Source: Hymenobacter sp. DG25A
GTDB lineage: Bacteria > Bacteroidota > Bacteroidia > Cytophagales > Hymenobacteraceae
Assembly (NCBI RefSeq): GCF_001280305.1
Contig: NZ_CP012623.1
Location: forward strand, 3,224,001 to 3,288,000
Length of the DNA: 64,000 nucleotides
Reading direction: 5' to 3'
This document shows positions 56,901 to 61,950 of this stretch, one piece after another. The notes beneath the pieces were generated by a model. The model saw nothing but the letters and a program-made list of their open reading frames with translations. It had not been told where the DNA came from and made no database searches. Position numbers and translations under genes: made by a program. How positions within the stretch are numbered: position 1 is the stretch's first letter; each line of letters opens with the position of its first letter.

Positions 56901-58070
56901 TTAGTCGCGGATATAAGGATAGTCCTGCTGTACATACACGTCCTTGAACAGCTCATCGGCGGTGGGGTACGGGGAGTTCTCAGCAAACTCTACCGACTCC
57001 TGAACCTGCGCTTTGATCTTTTCATCAATAGCGGCCAGTTCTTCTTCGGTCGCCATGTTGTTGGTAAGGATGGTGTGGCGTACCGACTCGATGGTGTCGC
57101 GGGAGCGGTAGTCCTCCAGCTCTTCCTTGGTGCGGTACTTGGCGGGGTCACTCATGGAGTGGCCCTTGTAGCGGTAGGTTTTGAACTCCAGGAACGTGGG
57201 GCCTTCGCCGGCACGGGCGCGCTCCGCGGCGCGGGCCACGGCGTTGTGCACGTCTTCCACGCTCATGGCATTCACCGGCTCCGAAGGCATGTCGTAGGCT
57301 TCGCCTATGGTATACAGCTCCGTGACGTTAGAAGTACGCTGCACGGATGTACCCATGGCGTAGCCGTTGTTCTCTACTACAAAGATAACCGGCAGCTTCC
57401 ACAGCATGGCCATGTTAAAGGCTTCGTGCAGGGCACCCTGGCGCACGGCACCATCACCCATGTAGCAGATGCAGAGGTTGCCGGTCTTGTTGTATTTCTC
57501 AGCGAAGCCAATGCCGGCACCCATCGGAACCTGCGCGCCTACAATGCCGTGGCCGCCCACAAAATTCACGTTCTTATCGAACATGTGCATAGAGCCGCCT
57601 TTGCCTTTGGAGCAACCGGTAGCTTTCGCAAACAGCTCGGCCATGATGGCATTAGGCGAGGTGCCCAGCGCCAGGGGATGCGCGTGGTCACGGTAAGCCG
57701 TAATCCACTTATCACCCTTGGTCAGGGCTGATACCGCCCCGGCAACGCACGCTTCCTGACCAATGTAGAGGTGGCAGAAGCCCTTTATCTTTTGCTGGCC
57801 GTATAGCTGGCCAGCTTTCTCTTCAAACTTGCGCATGAGCATCATTTGCTCATACCACTGCATATAAGTCTCCTTCGGAAACTGTGGCTTGTCCGTAGTG
57901 GTAGCTCTCGGAGCCGCAGCATGCGGATCACCAGCCGGTGGCATAACCGGATCAGGTTGTTTTACCGTATCCGGGGTTACCTTCTTGTCTTTACCTGCAG
58001 CTTTCGGAGCCGACGATTTTTTCGCCGAATTGGAAGCCTTTGGGGTAGCCTTTACTTTCGTCTCCGCCAT
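56901..58070 (-). CDS. pdhA: Pyruvate dehydrogenase E1 component, alpha subunit
   Basis: The 389-residue protein begins at the ATG at 58070 with a ~60-residue Lys/Ala/Pro-rich extension. The TPP-dependent core follows: MRKFEEKAGQLYGQQKIKGFCHLYIGQEA, the TPP motif GDGAVRQGALHEAFNMAMLW to VENNGYAMGT (about residues 205-235), and YRYKGHSMSDPAKYRT, the regulated loop. It decarboxylates pyruvate in the PDH complex. The beta subunit and E2 are not in the window. A region of 64 bp separates it from divergent recF. Confidence 0.95.
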   Translation of the reverse strand: MAETKVKATPKASNSAKKSSAPKAAGKDKKVTPDTVKQPDPVMPPAGDPHAAAPRATTTDKPQFPKETYMQWYEQMMLMRKFEEKAGQLYGQQKIKGFCHLYIGQEACVAGAVSALTKGDKWITAYRDHAHPLALGTSPNAIMAELFAKATGCSKGKGGSMHMFDKNVNFVGGHGIVGAQVPMGAGIGFAEKYNKTGNLCICYMGDGAVRQGALHEAFNMAMLWKLPVIFVVENNGYAMGTSVQRTSNVTELYTIGEAYDMPSEPVNAMSVEDVHNAVARAAERARAGEGPTFLEFKTYRYKGHSMSDPAKYRTKEELEDYRSRDTIESVRHTILTNNMATEEELAAIDEKIKAQVQESVEFAENSPYPTADELFKDVYVQQDYPYIRD

Positions 58071-58134
58071 CTTGCTTTCGGTTGTTCGCGTTTGGGATGC
58101 GAAAGTACGTAAAAGGATTGCAATTCCGAACCGA

Positions 58135-59247
58135 ATGATACTGGATAGTCTATACCTATTATTCTTCAAAAACTACGATGAAGCCTCGCTCCGGCTGTCT
58201 CCGCATATCAACTGTTTCGTGGGAGACAATGGTAGTGGCAAGACTAATCTGCTGGATGCTATCCATTATCTGTGTTTGACGAAAAGTGCCTTTACCTCCT
58301 CCGATGCCCAGAGCATTAAGCAGGGAGAGGAGTTCTTTGTAGTGAAGGGGCGGTTTCGCACCCCTCCTGCGGATACCTTGGAAACCATACAATGCAGTTT
58401 GCGCGCCGGCCAGAAGAAAGCCCTGACGCACGACAAGCAACCCTACGAACGGATATCAGACCACATAGGAAAATACCCGGTGGTCCTGATTTCTCCTTAC
58501 GACACGGACTTGATTCGGCAGGGTAGTGAGGAGCGACGCAAGTTTTTCGACAGCTTTATTTCGCAGCTGGACCACGCTTATCTGGAGTTGCTGATCCGCT
58601 ACTCCCACTTGCTCAAGCAACGTAACTCTTTGCTCAAACTGGCCGCCGAGCGCCAGAGCGGTTATGACCGGGACTACCTGCTGGTGCTGGACGAACAGCT
58701 GGCCCCCCTTGGCGAGCAACTTACTCAGCAACGACTACAGTTCCTGGCGGAGTTCACCCCTATTTTTCAGCGGCACTACGAGCAACTGGCCGATGGCCGG
58801 GAGCAAGTGACCCTGGAATATAAAAGCCAGCTCAGCGACGCTGACTTTGGTAAGCTCCTTCGCTTAAATGAGCGCAAGGACCTGATCCTCCAGCGCACCA
58901 CCATCGGCCCTCACAAGGACGACTTTGTCTTTCTGATGGATGGTATGCCCGTGAAGAGCTACGGCTCCCAGGGTCAGCAAAAGTCTTACGCCATTGCATT
59001 AAAGCTGGCCCAGTTTGAAATGGCTGCGGCCCGCAAAGGCCACAAACCCCTGCTGCTGTTGGATGATATTTTTGACCGCCTGGATGAGCGGCGCATTACC
59101 CGACTATTGCAGCTGGTAGCTGACCACACCTTCGGCCAGGTTTTCTTGACCGATACTCACCTGGAGCGCACCGACCGGATTCTGGCTTCGCTCTCGGAAC
59201 AGGTGAGTCGGTTTTTGGTGGAGCGTGGTACTGTCCGTGCTTTATAA
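58135..59247 (+). CDS. recF: DNA replication/repair protein RecF
   Basis: The 370-residue SMC-like ATPase has Walker A FVGDNGSGKTNLLDA (about residues 30-44), the signature-region SYGSQGQQKSYAIAL, and Walker B PLLLLDDIFDRLDERR (about residues 305-320). It loads RecA at gapped DNA with RecOR. ATG at 58135 starts MILDSLYLLFFKNYDEAS, right for the family. It is divergent from pdhA and followed 80 bases later by a DUF721 gene, a common recF neighbour. Confidence 0.95.
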   Translation: MILDSLYLLFFKNYDEASLRLSPHINCFVGDNGSGKTNLLDAIHYLCLTKSAFTSSDAQSIKQGEEFFVVKGRFRTPPADTLETIQCSLRAGQKKALTHDKQPYERISDHIGKYPVVLISPYDTDLIRQGSEERRKFFDSFISQLDHAYLELLIRYSHLLKQRNSLLKLAAERQSGYDRDYLLVLDEQLAPLGEQLTQQRLQFLAEFTPIFQRHYEQLADGREQVTLEYKSQLSDADFGKLLRLNERKDLILQRTTIGPHKDDFVFLMDGMPVKSYGSQGQQKSYAIALKLAQFEMAAARKGHKPLLLLDDIFDRLDERRITRLLQLVADHTFGQVFLTDTHLERTDRILASLSEQVSRFLVERGTVRAL

Positions 59248-59327: not shown

Positions 59328-59645
59328 TTGAAAAAGCATAATTCGAACCCAAATTCTCGTCAGGGGGATATTGTGCCTTTGAAGGACGGTATTACGGCAT
59401 TGCTTAAGGCTTACCGGTTGCAGGGCAAATTGAATGAGGTAACCGTAGTAGCCAGTTGGGAGCGGGTAATGGGCAAGGCGGTGGCTATGAAAACCCAACA
59501 GGTATATGTGAGCAACGGCAAACTGTTTGTGCGCCTGAGCTCGGCCCCTCTCAAGCATGAGCTGGTGATGGCTAAGACCCGGGTGCTGGATATTATCAAT
59601 GCCGAAGTGGGTGAGCAGGTTATTTCAGAAGTCATCTTCTTATAG
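59328..59645 (+). CDS. DUF721 (DciA-like) protein
   Basis: The 105-residue protein has the DUF721 core: ASWERVMGKAVAMKTQQVYVSNGKLFVRL and APLKHELVMAKTRVLDIIN. DciA-type members are thought to help load the replicative helicase, which fits the recF neighbour. The start at 59328 is a TTG; no ATG fits at the family N-terminus. A terminator follows at once, and then the gene-free region. Confidence 0.85.
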   Translation: MKKHNSNPNSRQGDIVPLKDGITALLKAYRLQGKLNEVTVVASWERVMGKAVAMKTQQVYVSNGKLFVRLSSAPLKHELVMAKTRVLDIINAEVGEQVISEVIFL

Positions 59646-59669
59646 CCGTTTCGGCTACCCGGCTTTTTT
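59644..59669 (+). terminator. Terminator after DUF721
   Basis: An AGCCG/CGGCT stem (59644-59648 with 59660-59664) runs straight into a T tract; an inner TAGCCG/CGGCTA hairpin competes with it. Confidence 0.65.
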
Positions 59670-60319
59670 CTACTTTATTCAGCAGCCCACTGCCGCAGTG
59701 CTCATATAGCCTGGTCTTCCCAGGTTTGTCTTATCCTGCATTGATCTACTCTCCCTTTGCCCACTTAGAGCGAGGGGTTGTTTTTCTATTATAGGCAGTT
59801 CACTACTCGCCTTTAGGCTGCTACCTGGCCTTCCTATTCCTCCCTCCTTTTATTCAAGGCAGACGCGGCTCCACCCCGCTTTTTACGACCTCATCTGGTT
59901 GTGCTGTTTTCTTCGGGCCTCACCCAAGACAGGCTTCTCTGCAGAGTAGATTAACTCCCCCTTCCGGCTTGTTGCCTCATCCCATATTACCGCCTTTATC
60001 CTGGGTAGTCTAGCCCTTCTATTGGCTTTATACTACCCCACTTTCTCCCTTTCCTTTGGCAGCTACTGTGCCTAGTGTGGATCGGTTTGACTATCCCTTT
60101 TTTCGGATTTTAGCAGAAGCTTCCTGGTGCCTTTTGGCCGTTAACCTGTCCCTCCAGCTTAGGCAAAACTTCTATACACTGCTTTCGATATCCTCGCTCT
60201 TCTCCCCCTACCAGCTCTTATCCTAGTCATATCCGCCCTCCTTTACCTGATTACTTATCTCCCTATTTCCCCCCCTTCAATTACCAGCCTGCTATTACGC
60301 TGTCCGCTACTGCAGTTGT
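59670..60319. other. Gene-free, pyrimidine-rich plus-strand region (~650 bp)
   Basis: By eye, about two thirds of plus-strand bases are C or T, with many CTTCC, CCTCC, CCCTTT-type runs and few purine runs. No reading frame of useful length exists on either strand. A CCTGG/CCAGG hairpin lies at 59710-59724. Together with the parS site that follows, this is a notable stretch without genes; its origin is unknown. Confidence 0.6.
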
Positions 60320-60349
60320 ACAAAAATGTTTCACGTGGAACATTTTTGT
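60320..60349. promoter_or_regulatory. ParB-type parS centromere site in a 30-bp palindrome
   Basis: The core at 60327-60342, TGTTTCACGTGGAACA, is one base from the B. subtilis parS form TGTTCCACGTGGAACA and fits the general tgttNCACGTGNAACA consensus. It sits in a longer inverted repeat, ACAAAAATGTT...AACATTTTTGT (60320-60349), that is palindromic apart from one base pair. It touches the stop codon of the HTH gene. ParB binding is inferred from the motif only. Confidence 0.8.
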
Positions 60350-60747
60350 TAGCGTGGACCATACACTTTAAGCAGCAACTCATTGTAAGCCTCTAACAGT
60401 GCTATGTACTTGTTTTGGAGGACCATTAGCTGCTTGGCATAGTCCTGATCAGTTAATGATACAGAAGAAGGTGTAACGGAATGCCGATTTGTAATAGGTG
60501 TAACAGGTGTAACATTATAACCGGATGTTACAAATGGCAAAGATGCTTGTTGCGGTAATGTAAAGTCGTTCGAAAAGTCATGCGAAATTATATCACCGAT
60601 ACGTTTTACAAAAGCGTAATCAAGTGTTTCATCTTTGAATTTACGATAGATAGTAGGGCGTGTAATACCCAGTTCTTCCACTATACGTGTAATGGAAATA
60701 CCGCTGTTTTTAATGGCTTCCTGCAGGATTTCGCCCTGATGTGGCAT
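60349..60747 (-). CDS. Small helix-turn-helix DNA-binding protein next to the parS palindrome
   Basis: The 132-residue protein has an N-terminal HTH (about residues 5-50: EAIKNSGISITRIVEELG, ITRPTIYRKFKDETLDYA) of a general transcriptional-regulator type. A flexible middle carries repeated V-T-P units (NVTPVTPITNRHSVTPSS), then a C-terminal coiled-coil-like helix (YAKQLMVLQNKYIALLEAYN). The DNA encoding V-T-P is itself part of the TGTAAC motif cluster. I do not recognise a specific family. The upstream AT-rich motif field suggests autoregulation or multi-site binding. The stop overlaps the parS palindrome. ATG at 60747. Confidence 0.75.
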   Translation of the reverse strand: MPHQGEILQEAIKNSGISITRIVEELGITRPTIYRKFKDETLDYAFVKRIGDIISHDFSNDFTLPQQASLPFVTSGYNVTPVTPITNRHSVTPSSVSLTDQDYAKQLMVLQNKYIALLEAYNELLLKVYGPR

Positions 60748-61110
60748 ATAAGGAGGGTGTATTACTGGGGAAATGTAAATATGTAAAAAACGAACAAGCT
60801 ATACAAACATGATACGTAAATCGCATTACAATTACACGGTGTAACAATTACACATTTACAGTATCAGATACAATTTACAGAATACGAAATTACATGATAC
60901 ACGTTACATATCATTGATACATTTTACAAATAACATTGTATGTAACGTTACAAAACTCGTAACTCACCCGTATAAAGCCCTTTAAGAAGTCAACTTCCAT
61001 CAACTGAGTTACCACAAACTTCTCCTTGGTATAAGCCGGGATGACAAGGGCGTGCTTACGCAGTGTAATGCTGAGAGCACACGCGCAAAAGCCAGAGCTA
61101 TTAACCTGAA
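60748..61110. repeat. AT-rich region with clustered TGTAA/TTACA and GATAC motifs upstream of the HTH gene
   Basis: Between the HTH gene start and the GDPD gene stop lie about thirteen TGTAA or TTACA pentamers (60774, 60782, 60826, 60832, 60840, 60848, 60856, 60875, 60890, 60904, 60924, 60941, 60948) and GATAC/GTATC motifs at 60811, 60861, 60867, 60896 and 60916, including the palindrome GTATCAGATAC at 60861-60871. Another five TGTAAC-like motifs lie inside the HTH gene (60472-60532). The field is much more AT-rich than the flanks. It looks like a multi-site operator or iteron array. From 60,960 to 61,110 I see nothing further. Confidence 0.7.
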
Positions 61111-61950
61111 TCAGGAGGTTAGCAGCGCTAGACGGTCAGGATAATCCGTGGTAAGCCCATCTACGTGCATAGACAGTAGAGCTTTCATAGCATCGGGTTC
61201 ATTCACTGTCCAGGGGATAATCCGCATACCCAGCACGTGAACAGCCGCTACCAGTTCGGCCGTAACCAGGGAGAAGCGCGGGCCATAGACAGCGGGTATA
61301 AACCCCAGCTTTTGAAGATGAGTTGACAGAGGGATTTCATCCTCCACCAACAGGCACAAAGGCACCGTGGGATACTGCGTATGGGCTACCTGCAGGATGC
61401 GAGGATCAAAGCTGAGCAGGGTAGTGCGGTCCTGAAATTCGGAGGCCAGCACAACCTCCATAACGAGCTGCACGAAGCGCGCCGGCGCAGGATGAAAAAC
61501 ACCATCACCGCCTGGCTCACTCTTAATCTCAATACTGAAACGGGGCAGCGCACGACCCATCGTTTGGGCAGCCGCCGATACCTGCGTGAGAACGTCGCGT
61601 AGCAAGGGCTTGACGGCCGCTACTGGTTGTTGAAAAGGAAAACCCGGATGCGGCGTCAGGCCACAGTCATACTGCTTAATAGCACTATAGGGGAGCTGGT
61701 AAAGATTGTGCTCCTGCTCGGAACCAGAGGGAATAGGCAGCCCTGATGGCAAGCGGCAGATAGCCGAGGAAAACCACGGCTCGTGCGACACCACTACTTG
61801 GTTATCGGCAGAGATAACTACATCCAGCTCCAACACGTCTACGCCCAGGGAAAGGGCGTGTAAGAATCCGGGCATGGTATTTTCTGGACGCAGGCCCCGG
61901 CATCCACGATGTCCATGGACTTCTGGGCGGGAGGCAATAGTATGTGGCAT
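61111..61950 (-). CDS. Glycerophosphodiester phosphodiesterase (GDPD), cytosolic
   Basis: The 279-residue TIM-barrel protein has the catalytic HGHRGCRGLRPENTMPGF (about residues 12-29), acid residues in VDVLELDVVISADNQVVVSHE, IEIKSEP in the middle and IPWTVNEPDAMKALLSMHVDGLTTDYP at the end. It hydrolyses glycerophosphodiesters to glycerol 3-phosphate and an alcohol. No signal peptide is seen, so it is likely cytosolic, UgpQ-like. ATG at 61950. Confidence 0.92.
   Translation of the reverse strand: MPHTIASRPEVHGHRGCRGLRPENTMPGFLHALSLGVDVLELDVVISADNQVVVSHEPWFSSAICRLPSGLPIPSGSEQEHNLYQLPYSAIKQYDCGLTPHPGFPFQQPVAAVKPLLRDVLTQVSAAAQTMGRALPRFSIEIKSEPGGDGVFHPAPARFVQLVMEVVLASEFQDRTTLLSFDPRILQVAHTQYPTVPLCLLVEDEIPLSTHLQKLGFIPAVYGPRFSLVTAELVAAVHVLGMRIIPWTVNEPDAMKALLSMHVDGLTTDYPDRLALLTS

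Follow-up and report, generated by a model that had tools for sequence, protein, structure and literature searches.

ParR/parC and TubR/tubC are examples of operator-centromere arrays. In another one, on plasmid pSM19035, the small protein omega (ParB-pSM) binds short repeats over its own promoter, which constitute both the operator and the plasmid centromere (PMC9499535). The locus described here lies in a 64-kb window (the whole stretch of DNA analyzed) of a Hymenobacter chromosome and comprises a gene for a putative DNA-binding protein with a helix-turn-helix (HTH), a dense array of TGTAA/TTACA words and a parS site. It resembles omega/parS of pSM19035, as described in PMC9499535, in combining a small DNA-binding protein with a short, non-palindromic word (7 bp in pSM19035) that is present in both orientations. 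Moreover, the array overlaps the promoter region of the gene for the putative binder itself, an arrangement that in pSM19035 serves as operator and centromere (PMC9499535). In contrast, omega has an RHH fold and binds contiguous heptads on a plasmid that also carries a ParA gene (PMC9499535), whereas the Hymenobacter locus encodes an HTH protein, has irregularly spaced words (median 17 bp), is located on the chromosome and adjoins a separate, ParB-type parS, and no gene for an ATPase partner was seen in its neighborhood. Thus, it shares with the operator-centromere class the position of the sites over the gene's own promoter region, but not the regular spacing or the gene for a partner NTPase.

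A second comparison is with RocS of Streptococcus pneumoniae and pSK1 Par. According to PMC11500499, these proteins have an N-terminal DNA-binding domain and a C-terminal helical segment and lack an NTPase, as is also the case here, and RocS was reported to interact with ParB (PMC13042908). RocS is a membrane-binding protein (PMC11500499); in the HTH protein, a helix is predicted at residues 100-129. The description of RocS in PMC11500499 that was considered here does not refer to operator sites within the coding sequence of the binder. The likeness is one of described architecture, and no Pfam match to DUF536, a segment of RocS and pSK1 Par, was found in the HTH protein at E values up to 0.001. 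The locus was therefore assigned to neither class: its fold, its spacing and the lack of a motor gene among the neighbors seen separate it from pSM19035, and the lack of a DUF536 match separates it from RocS.

The binding sites of Noc, SlmA and MatP are scattered along the chromosome, whereas the Hymenobacter sites are confined to one locus of ~0.5 kb. Like these proteins, of which Noc binds the NBS (PMC4331003), the HTH protein would be a site-specific DNA-binding protein that could organize chromosome regions. A repeat array adjoining a partition function, as found here, is also known from the secondary replicons of Deinococcus radiodurans, where it is located upstream of parAB and the repeats interact with ParB2/ParB3 and with DnaA (PMC7671480); the Hymenobacter array, however, is on the main chromosome, is associated with the HTH gene and contains no DnaA boxes. 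As in chromosomal ParABS systems, the parS is canonical, and a single parS per chromosome is known in Xanthomonas campestris (PMC7333895). In contrast to what is described for such systems there, the Hymenobacter parS is locked to a gene for a non-ParB DNA-binding protein with a dense site array of its own. Among the matches listed from the open-access literature, there was no paper on the Hymenobacter parS, HTH gene or array, nor one on the combination of a canonical chromosomal parS with a codon-embedded array.

The HTH gene, the array, which extends from approximately -210 to +300 relative to the start codon, and the parS, 6-9 bp after the stop codon, form one conserved unit in 69 of 69 loci, i.e., the window and 68 named loci; one locus with a truncated gene (L097) was left out of all counts on this set. 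The gene (60349..60747, - strand) is an ORF of 132 codons for amino acids with a Pfam HTH_7 match, and it has a match in all 61 genomes of the genus, including the genome studied. An AlphaFold2 model (m49c105b1cc17) and fold comparison are consistent with an N-terminal HTH (helices at residues 4-54) and a C-terminal helix (100-129), connected by a disordered linker rich in V, T, S and P (residues ~63-104); the V-T-P repeat of the original prediction is indeed present in the translation. Searches of NCBIfam, PHROGs and PADLOC with the protein gave weak HTH matches only, and a PDB sequence search gave nothing significant. The only Rfam match was below the threshold and located in dciA. The parS (GTTTCACGTGGAAC, 60328..60341), which was rightly claimed to adjoin the array, lies 7 bp past the HTH stop codon and is the sole exact GTTYCACGTGRAAC in the 3.78-Mb genome; with one mismatch, GTTYCACGTGRAAC occurs at three more places, which is no more than in the control. 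The slightly longer TGTTTCACGTGGAACA (60327-60342) fits the 14-16 bp parS palindrome TGTTTCACGTGAAACA with one difference. Of the 69 loci, 59 have parS 7 bp from the stop codon, while 10 have a distance of 6, 8 or 9 bp. A 15-base parS pattern was found in 195 of 200 genomes of the family, nearly always once per genome.

The segment 60472-60952 contains 22 TGTAA/TTACA words, against a mean of 3.4 and a maximum of 9 in 500 dinucleotide shuffles. As had been estimated, 13 of them are upstream of the gene (60774..60952), on both strands and accompanied by five GATAC/GTATC words; dinucleotide shuffles of this part yielded a mean of 2.3 and a maximum of 6. The accompanying estimate that about one word would be expected by chance agrees with mononucleotide shuffles (0.8), a laxer null, but not with the dinucleotide shuffles. 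The coding sequence contains ten words (mean 1.9 and maximum 8 in dinucleotide shuffles), nine of which, at 60472..60692, are embedded in codons of the linker and the HTH, whilst the tenth is at 60384. Words are thus in excess in the gene as well, although four rather than five TGTAAC/GTTACA were counted there. GATAC/GTATC, also thought to occur five times, is enriched as claimed, with a count of six in 60472-60952 (mean 1.1, maximum 4 in shuffles). The second-densest 200 bp anywhere in the window contain three TGTAA/TTACA words, and, since the window as a whole has fewer words than expected (59 vs. 79), the cluster is a local one. Across the genome, a pair pattern of two TGTWACA separated by 0-30 bases had two matches, both at the HTH locus, and one match in the backward control. 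The AT content is 0.66-0.67 over the 200 bp 5' of the gene, compared with 0.39-0.51 farther upstream. A 23-nt repeat (GATAC....TTTTACAAA) is present, with 87% identity, both in the coding sequence (60590-60612) and in the upstream array (60908-60930).

The original prediction depended on conservation of the motifs in relatives, and they were found to be dense in all 68 relatives compared, with signs of selection at the codon level (see below). In the 69 loci, there are 7.5 ± 1.9 words (range 3-13) in the 220 bp upstream of the gene and 7.0 ± 1.3 (range 4-10) in its first 400 bp, and the site profile drops sharply at both edges. The median number of 10-mers common to the upstream regions of two species is one (67 non-redundant upstream regions; two of the 69 were removed as near-duplicates from this and the spacing and phasing analyses). 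These regions barely align yet have stable counts, which means that individual sites come and go at a maintained overall number. The sequence logo shows TGTAA, preceded by a weak preference for G/T and followed by C in preference to A or T, with G almost never present, and then mostly by A/G. Thus, the site is asymmetric, and a strictly palindromic reading as TGTWACA was dropped. TGTATC and CGTAAC are enriched approximately tenfold in the upstream regions, and GATAC/GTATC may partly represent variants of the TGTAA word. The spacing of adjacent sites, which occur on both strands, is irregular and broad (median 17 bp), and regular iterons, in the sense of strict direct repeats, were rejected for this reason. 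With respect to phase, the sites on the same strand are weakly phased at 10.5 bp in the 67 upstream regions (R 0.148 vs. 0.051 ± 0.025 in the null, a value reached in 0 of 500 placements), whereas those on opposite strands show no helical phasing. The pair pattern was present at the HTH locus in each of 18 further genomes, 15 from the genus and three from the sister genus; 41 of its 56 matches were at this locus, and the 15 elsewhere are close to the total of 14 in the backward control (tallied by hand). A nucleoid system with scattered sites was rejected because the pair pattern is found only at the HTH locus in the genome studied, with which the 18 genomes agree.

The words within the gene are under selection at the DNA level, through the choice of codons. 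When synonymous codons were drawn from the usage of each locus, 22 ± 4 words were expected in the HTH-coding part and 17 ± 4 in the linker-coding part, against 149 and 270 observed, respectively. The C-terminal part (the last 28 codons) serves as an internal negative control, without excess (12 words vs. 11 ± 3). A more conservative shuffle of synonymous codons within the gene gave 81 ± 7 for the HTH, 110 ± 8 for the linker and 25 ± 5 for the C terminus. The latter test is independent of the background codon set, which consisted of all stop-to-stop frames of at least 250 codons and may include non-coding frames, and which was used in the usage null and the V-T test. Control words of the same letters were less frequent than TGTAA, with 87 for TTGAA and 69 for TAATG in the HTH part and a maximum of 31 in the linker. 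ACA accounts for 398 of 724 threonine codons in the HTH gene, compared with 1161 of 21888 in the background, and 205 of the 216 V-T dipeptides of the linker contain a word in their DNA, compared with 50 of 1181 background V-T pairs. Thus, the disordered linker is rich in V and T largely because its DNA belongs to the array.

A putative core promoter of the HTH gene (60774..60807, - strand) has a TTTG at 60804-60807 and a -7-like element that overlaps the words at 60774 and 60782. It was placed by eye with what we take to be the Bacteroidetes promoter consensus, because a strict form of this pattern matched in only six of the 69 loci. In 53 of the 69 loci, at least one word is present between positions -45 and -10 relative to the start codon and hence at the apparent core promoter, which makes autorepression the likely ancestral function. 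Judged from sequence patterns, the HTH protein is the probable binder of the TGTAA words and probably represses its own gene. The interpretation of the array as the operator of this protein appears well supported, if indirectly, by its conservation, its extension over the promoter, the codon selection and the recurrence of the word at orthologs in another genus; this half of the suggested "operator or iteron array" stands, while a strict iteron is at variance with the irregular spacing.

The same locus is present in all six genomes of the sister genus, where genes for glycerophosphodiester phosphodiesterase (GDPD), the HTH protein, DciA and RecF were all matched by tblastn and parS is located 8-9 bp after the HTH stop codon. 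There are 6-10 words in the upstream 220 bp; the linker has 3-5, and the C-terminal part is free of them. In four other genera, parS directly precedes mnmG in 20 of 20 genomes, and three more genomes of one genus are alike; the gene on the other side is, presumably, ybeY-like in 18 of the 20. No word cluster was found at these 20 mnmG-linked parS loci, with at most five words per 400 bp. The mnmG gene of the Hymenobacter genome studied is ~25 kb away from parS, and no relic of a parS, with up to four mismatches, was found in the 4.8 kb around it. The most parsimonious interpretation is a relocation of parS inside this region in the common lineage of Hymenobacter and its sister genus, and the move would have been from mnmG to the HTH gene.

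Outside these two genera, an HTH-alignment match was found in 13 of 30 genomes of the family and none in the other 17. Twelve matches were strong, and 11 of these, all from one genus, were readable; one (L273) was not located, and two weak ones (L275 and L276) were left out. In ten of the 11 orthologs, 2-4 words are present within 220 bp upstream, and in one there are none, which amounts to 28 words, compared with 7.4 in shuffles. Other words, e.g., GCAGC and CCACA, are equally enriched in these regions, and the counts are not independent, since the promoters are related and can be aligned. The 12 ortholog loci (~3.4 kb each) are without parS and gave no match to dciA, recF, GDPD or mnmG. A second, weaker relative of the HTH protein (29-47% identical) is found in 10 of 61 genomes of the genus (L250-L259), with one split-gene genome not counted.

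We consider it somewhat better than an even chance that the HTH protein is an autorepressing, TGTAA-binding protein whose array forms a nucleoprotein patch acting as a partner of the ParB complex beside parS. The protein would bind the asymmetric words of a dense, irregular array that spans the promoter region and the initial 300 bp of its gene. Once bound, it would repress this gene and create a patch of ~500 bp adjoining the only exact parS. From parS, ParB moves by sliding, and tightly bound proteins can block its path. By oligomerization or as a tether to a partner, the C-terminal helix might enable the patch to compact the ParB partition complex, fix its position or limit its extent, so that the patch could be a one-sided barrier, a condenser or a tether. 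The ancestral protein may have been an ordinary autoregulator with few operator sites, away from parS, whose operator was amplified into the coding sequence in the lineage of Hymenobacter and the sister genus, with parS now beside the array. A bolder proposal, to which we tentatively give a little less than even chances, is that of a composite chromosomal centromere in Hymenobacter and its sister genus, in which the single ParB-type parS has merged with another array that is bound independently and lies partly inside the coding sequence of its binder. Gene, operator and segregation site would then be one object, the second complex would condition the loading of ParB, its spreading (e.g., by acting as a barrier on one side) or the tethering of the origin, and the whole would have originated by operator amplification and the arrival of parS. 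It is solely the invariant adjacency to the single exact parS that suggests a DNA-organizing or segregation role of the array; the latter is likely, albeit on circumstantial grounds.

Alternatively, the array could be just an overgrown operator for very tight control of the amount of HTH protein, with the adjacency of parS being historical or reflecting a favorable, lowly transcribed site. The words near the start codon in 53 of 69 loci and the 2-4 upstream words of orthologs at loci without parS (10 of 11) are in line with such pure autoregulation. However, ~15 sites per locus, which continue through the first 300 bp of coding sequence and are selected at the codon level, exceed what repression usually needs, and the nearly fixed distance between stop codon and parS (7 bp in 59 of 69) and the arrangement common to two genera also argue against it, so that we consider it rather unlikely. 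Still much less probable, in our view, is that another protein, e.g., a nucleoid-associated protein or ParB itself, binds the words and that the HTH gene merely lies underneath. It is true that Hymenobacter paralogs of the HTH protein lack arrays: there are 0-2 words within 300 bp upstream in the five of 10 that were located (the pattern used did not find L252 and L256-L259, which were dropped), yet these paralogs are 41-46% identical over the HTH and have a very similar recognition helix. Hence, recognition helix and array are not tightly coupled. On the other side, the word recurs upstream of the HTH orthologs of another genus at a different place, and the array is essentially unique in each genome, unlike the sites of global proteins.

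It is just as improbable that an AT-rich oriC is located here, with the HTH protein acting as its iteron-like initiator or as a factor that restrains initiation. In favor of this view, the array is AT-rich, dciA and recF are neighbors in 69 of 69 loci, and parS is usually situated near the origin (PMC7333895). With the E. coli consensus (TTATCCACA, at most one mismatch), however, no DnaA box was found in 14 kb of the window, and the boxes are not enriched in the 69 loci (0.11 vs. 0.09 per kb). Nor was a switch in replication GC skew detected in 20 stretches each of this genome (G000) and two others (G012 and G052), including at third codon positions by gene strand, and the word is found upstream of orthologs outside the parS neighborhood as well. 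While dciA, recF and mnmG are near parS, dnaA is ~1 Mb away.

To return to the reading of a patch beside the ParB complex, the array and the HTH gene point to an undescribed part of the chromosome segregation machinery. The locus offers a natural case, genus-wide, of one exact chromosomal parS that is tied to a second, putative DNA-binding protein, as well as an evolutionary before and after, i.e., parS at mnmG and an ortholog with few upstream sites in other genera vs. the combined locus in Hymenobacter. Through it, the limits and shape of ParB spreading beside parS and the way in which bacterial centromeres move can be tested. With 205 of 216 linker V-T pairs in the form of DNA that makes a site, it also clearly exemplifies a coding sequence that is preserved as an array of putative protein-binding sites.

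On the parS side, the neighboring gene is dciA (59328..59645, + strand; Pfam DciA), with a tblastn match in all 69 loci. It is separated from parS by 140-1339 bp in 65 loci (four of the 69 gave no gap by the rule used). In the window, these ~670 bp (59646-60319) look pyrimidine-rich on the + strand and contain no listed ORF of at least 60 aa; 28 of the 65 gaps in relatives contain an ORF of at least 100 aa. Beyond dciA is an ORF (57889..59247, + strand) that we named recF-like from its sequence, with a probable true start near 58138 and a tblastn match in 69 of 69 loci. The neighbor on the array side (61111..61950, - strand; Pfam GDPD) encodes a glycerophosphodiester phosphodiesterase and was matched by tblastn in 61 of 69 loci. 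Pfam matches in five neighbors were DciA, GDPD, DUF2939, PLDc_N and Rhomboid, and the further neighbors are, as we take it, the recF-like gene and metabolic genes. No gene for a ParA- or ParB-like protein or a partner motor NTPase was seen among these neighbors; parB is present elsewhere in the genome, as one TIGR00180 match at 674635 (E 6.7e-55), more than 1 Mb from parS.

The parS is the center of an extended inverted repeat (60320..60349) with two arms of 15 nt that are 93% complementary. In the Hymenobacter loci, pairs 1-8 of its flanks are complementary in 75-97% and covary, whereas the outer flanks of parS are mostly non-complementary in the other genera sampled. As RNA, the repeat folds with a z score of -2.5, and it may therefore have a second role as the terminator of the HTH gene; a terminator hairpin and an extended ParB site are both possible. 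A one-mismatch parS, GTTCCACGGGAAAC (G000:C1:3292913-3292926), is located 8.6 kb from parS in an ORF resembling an ABC transporter gene, and is either a weak second parS or a coding coincidence. In the sister genus, a comparable site is found 9.0-9.9 kb from its parS in six of six genomes.
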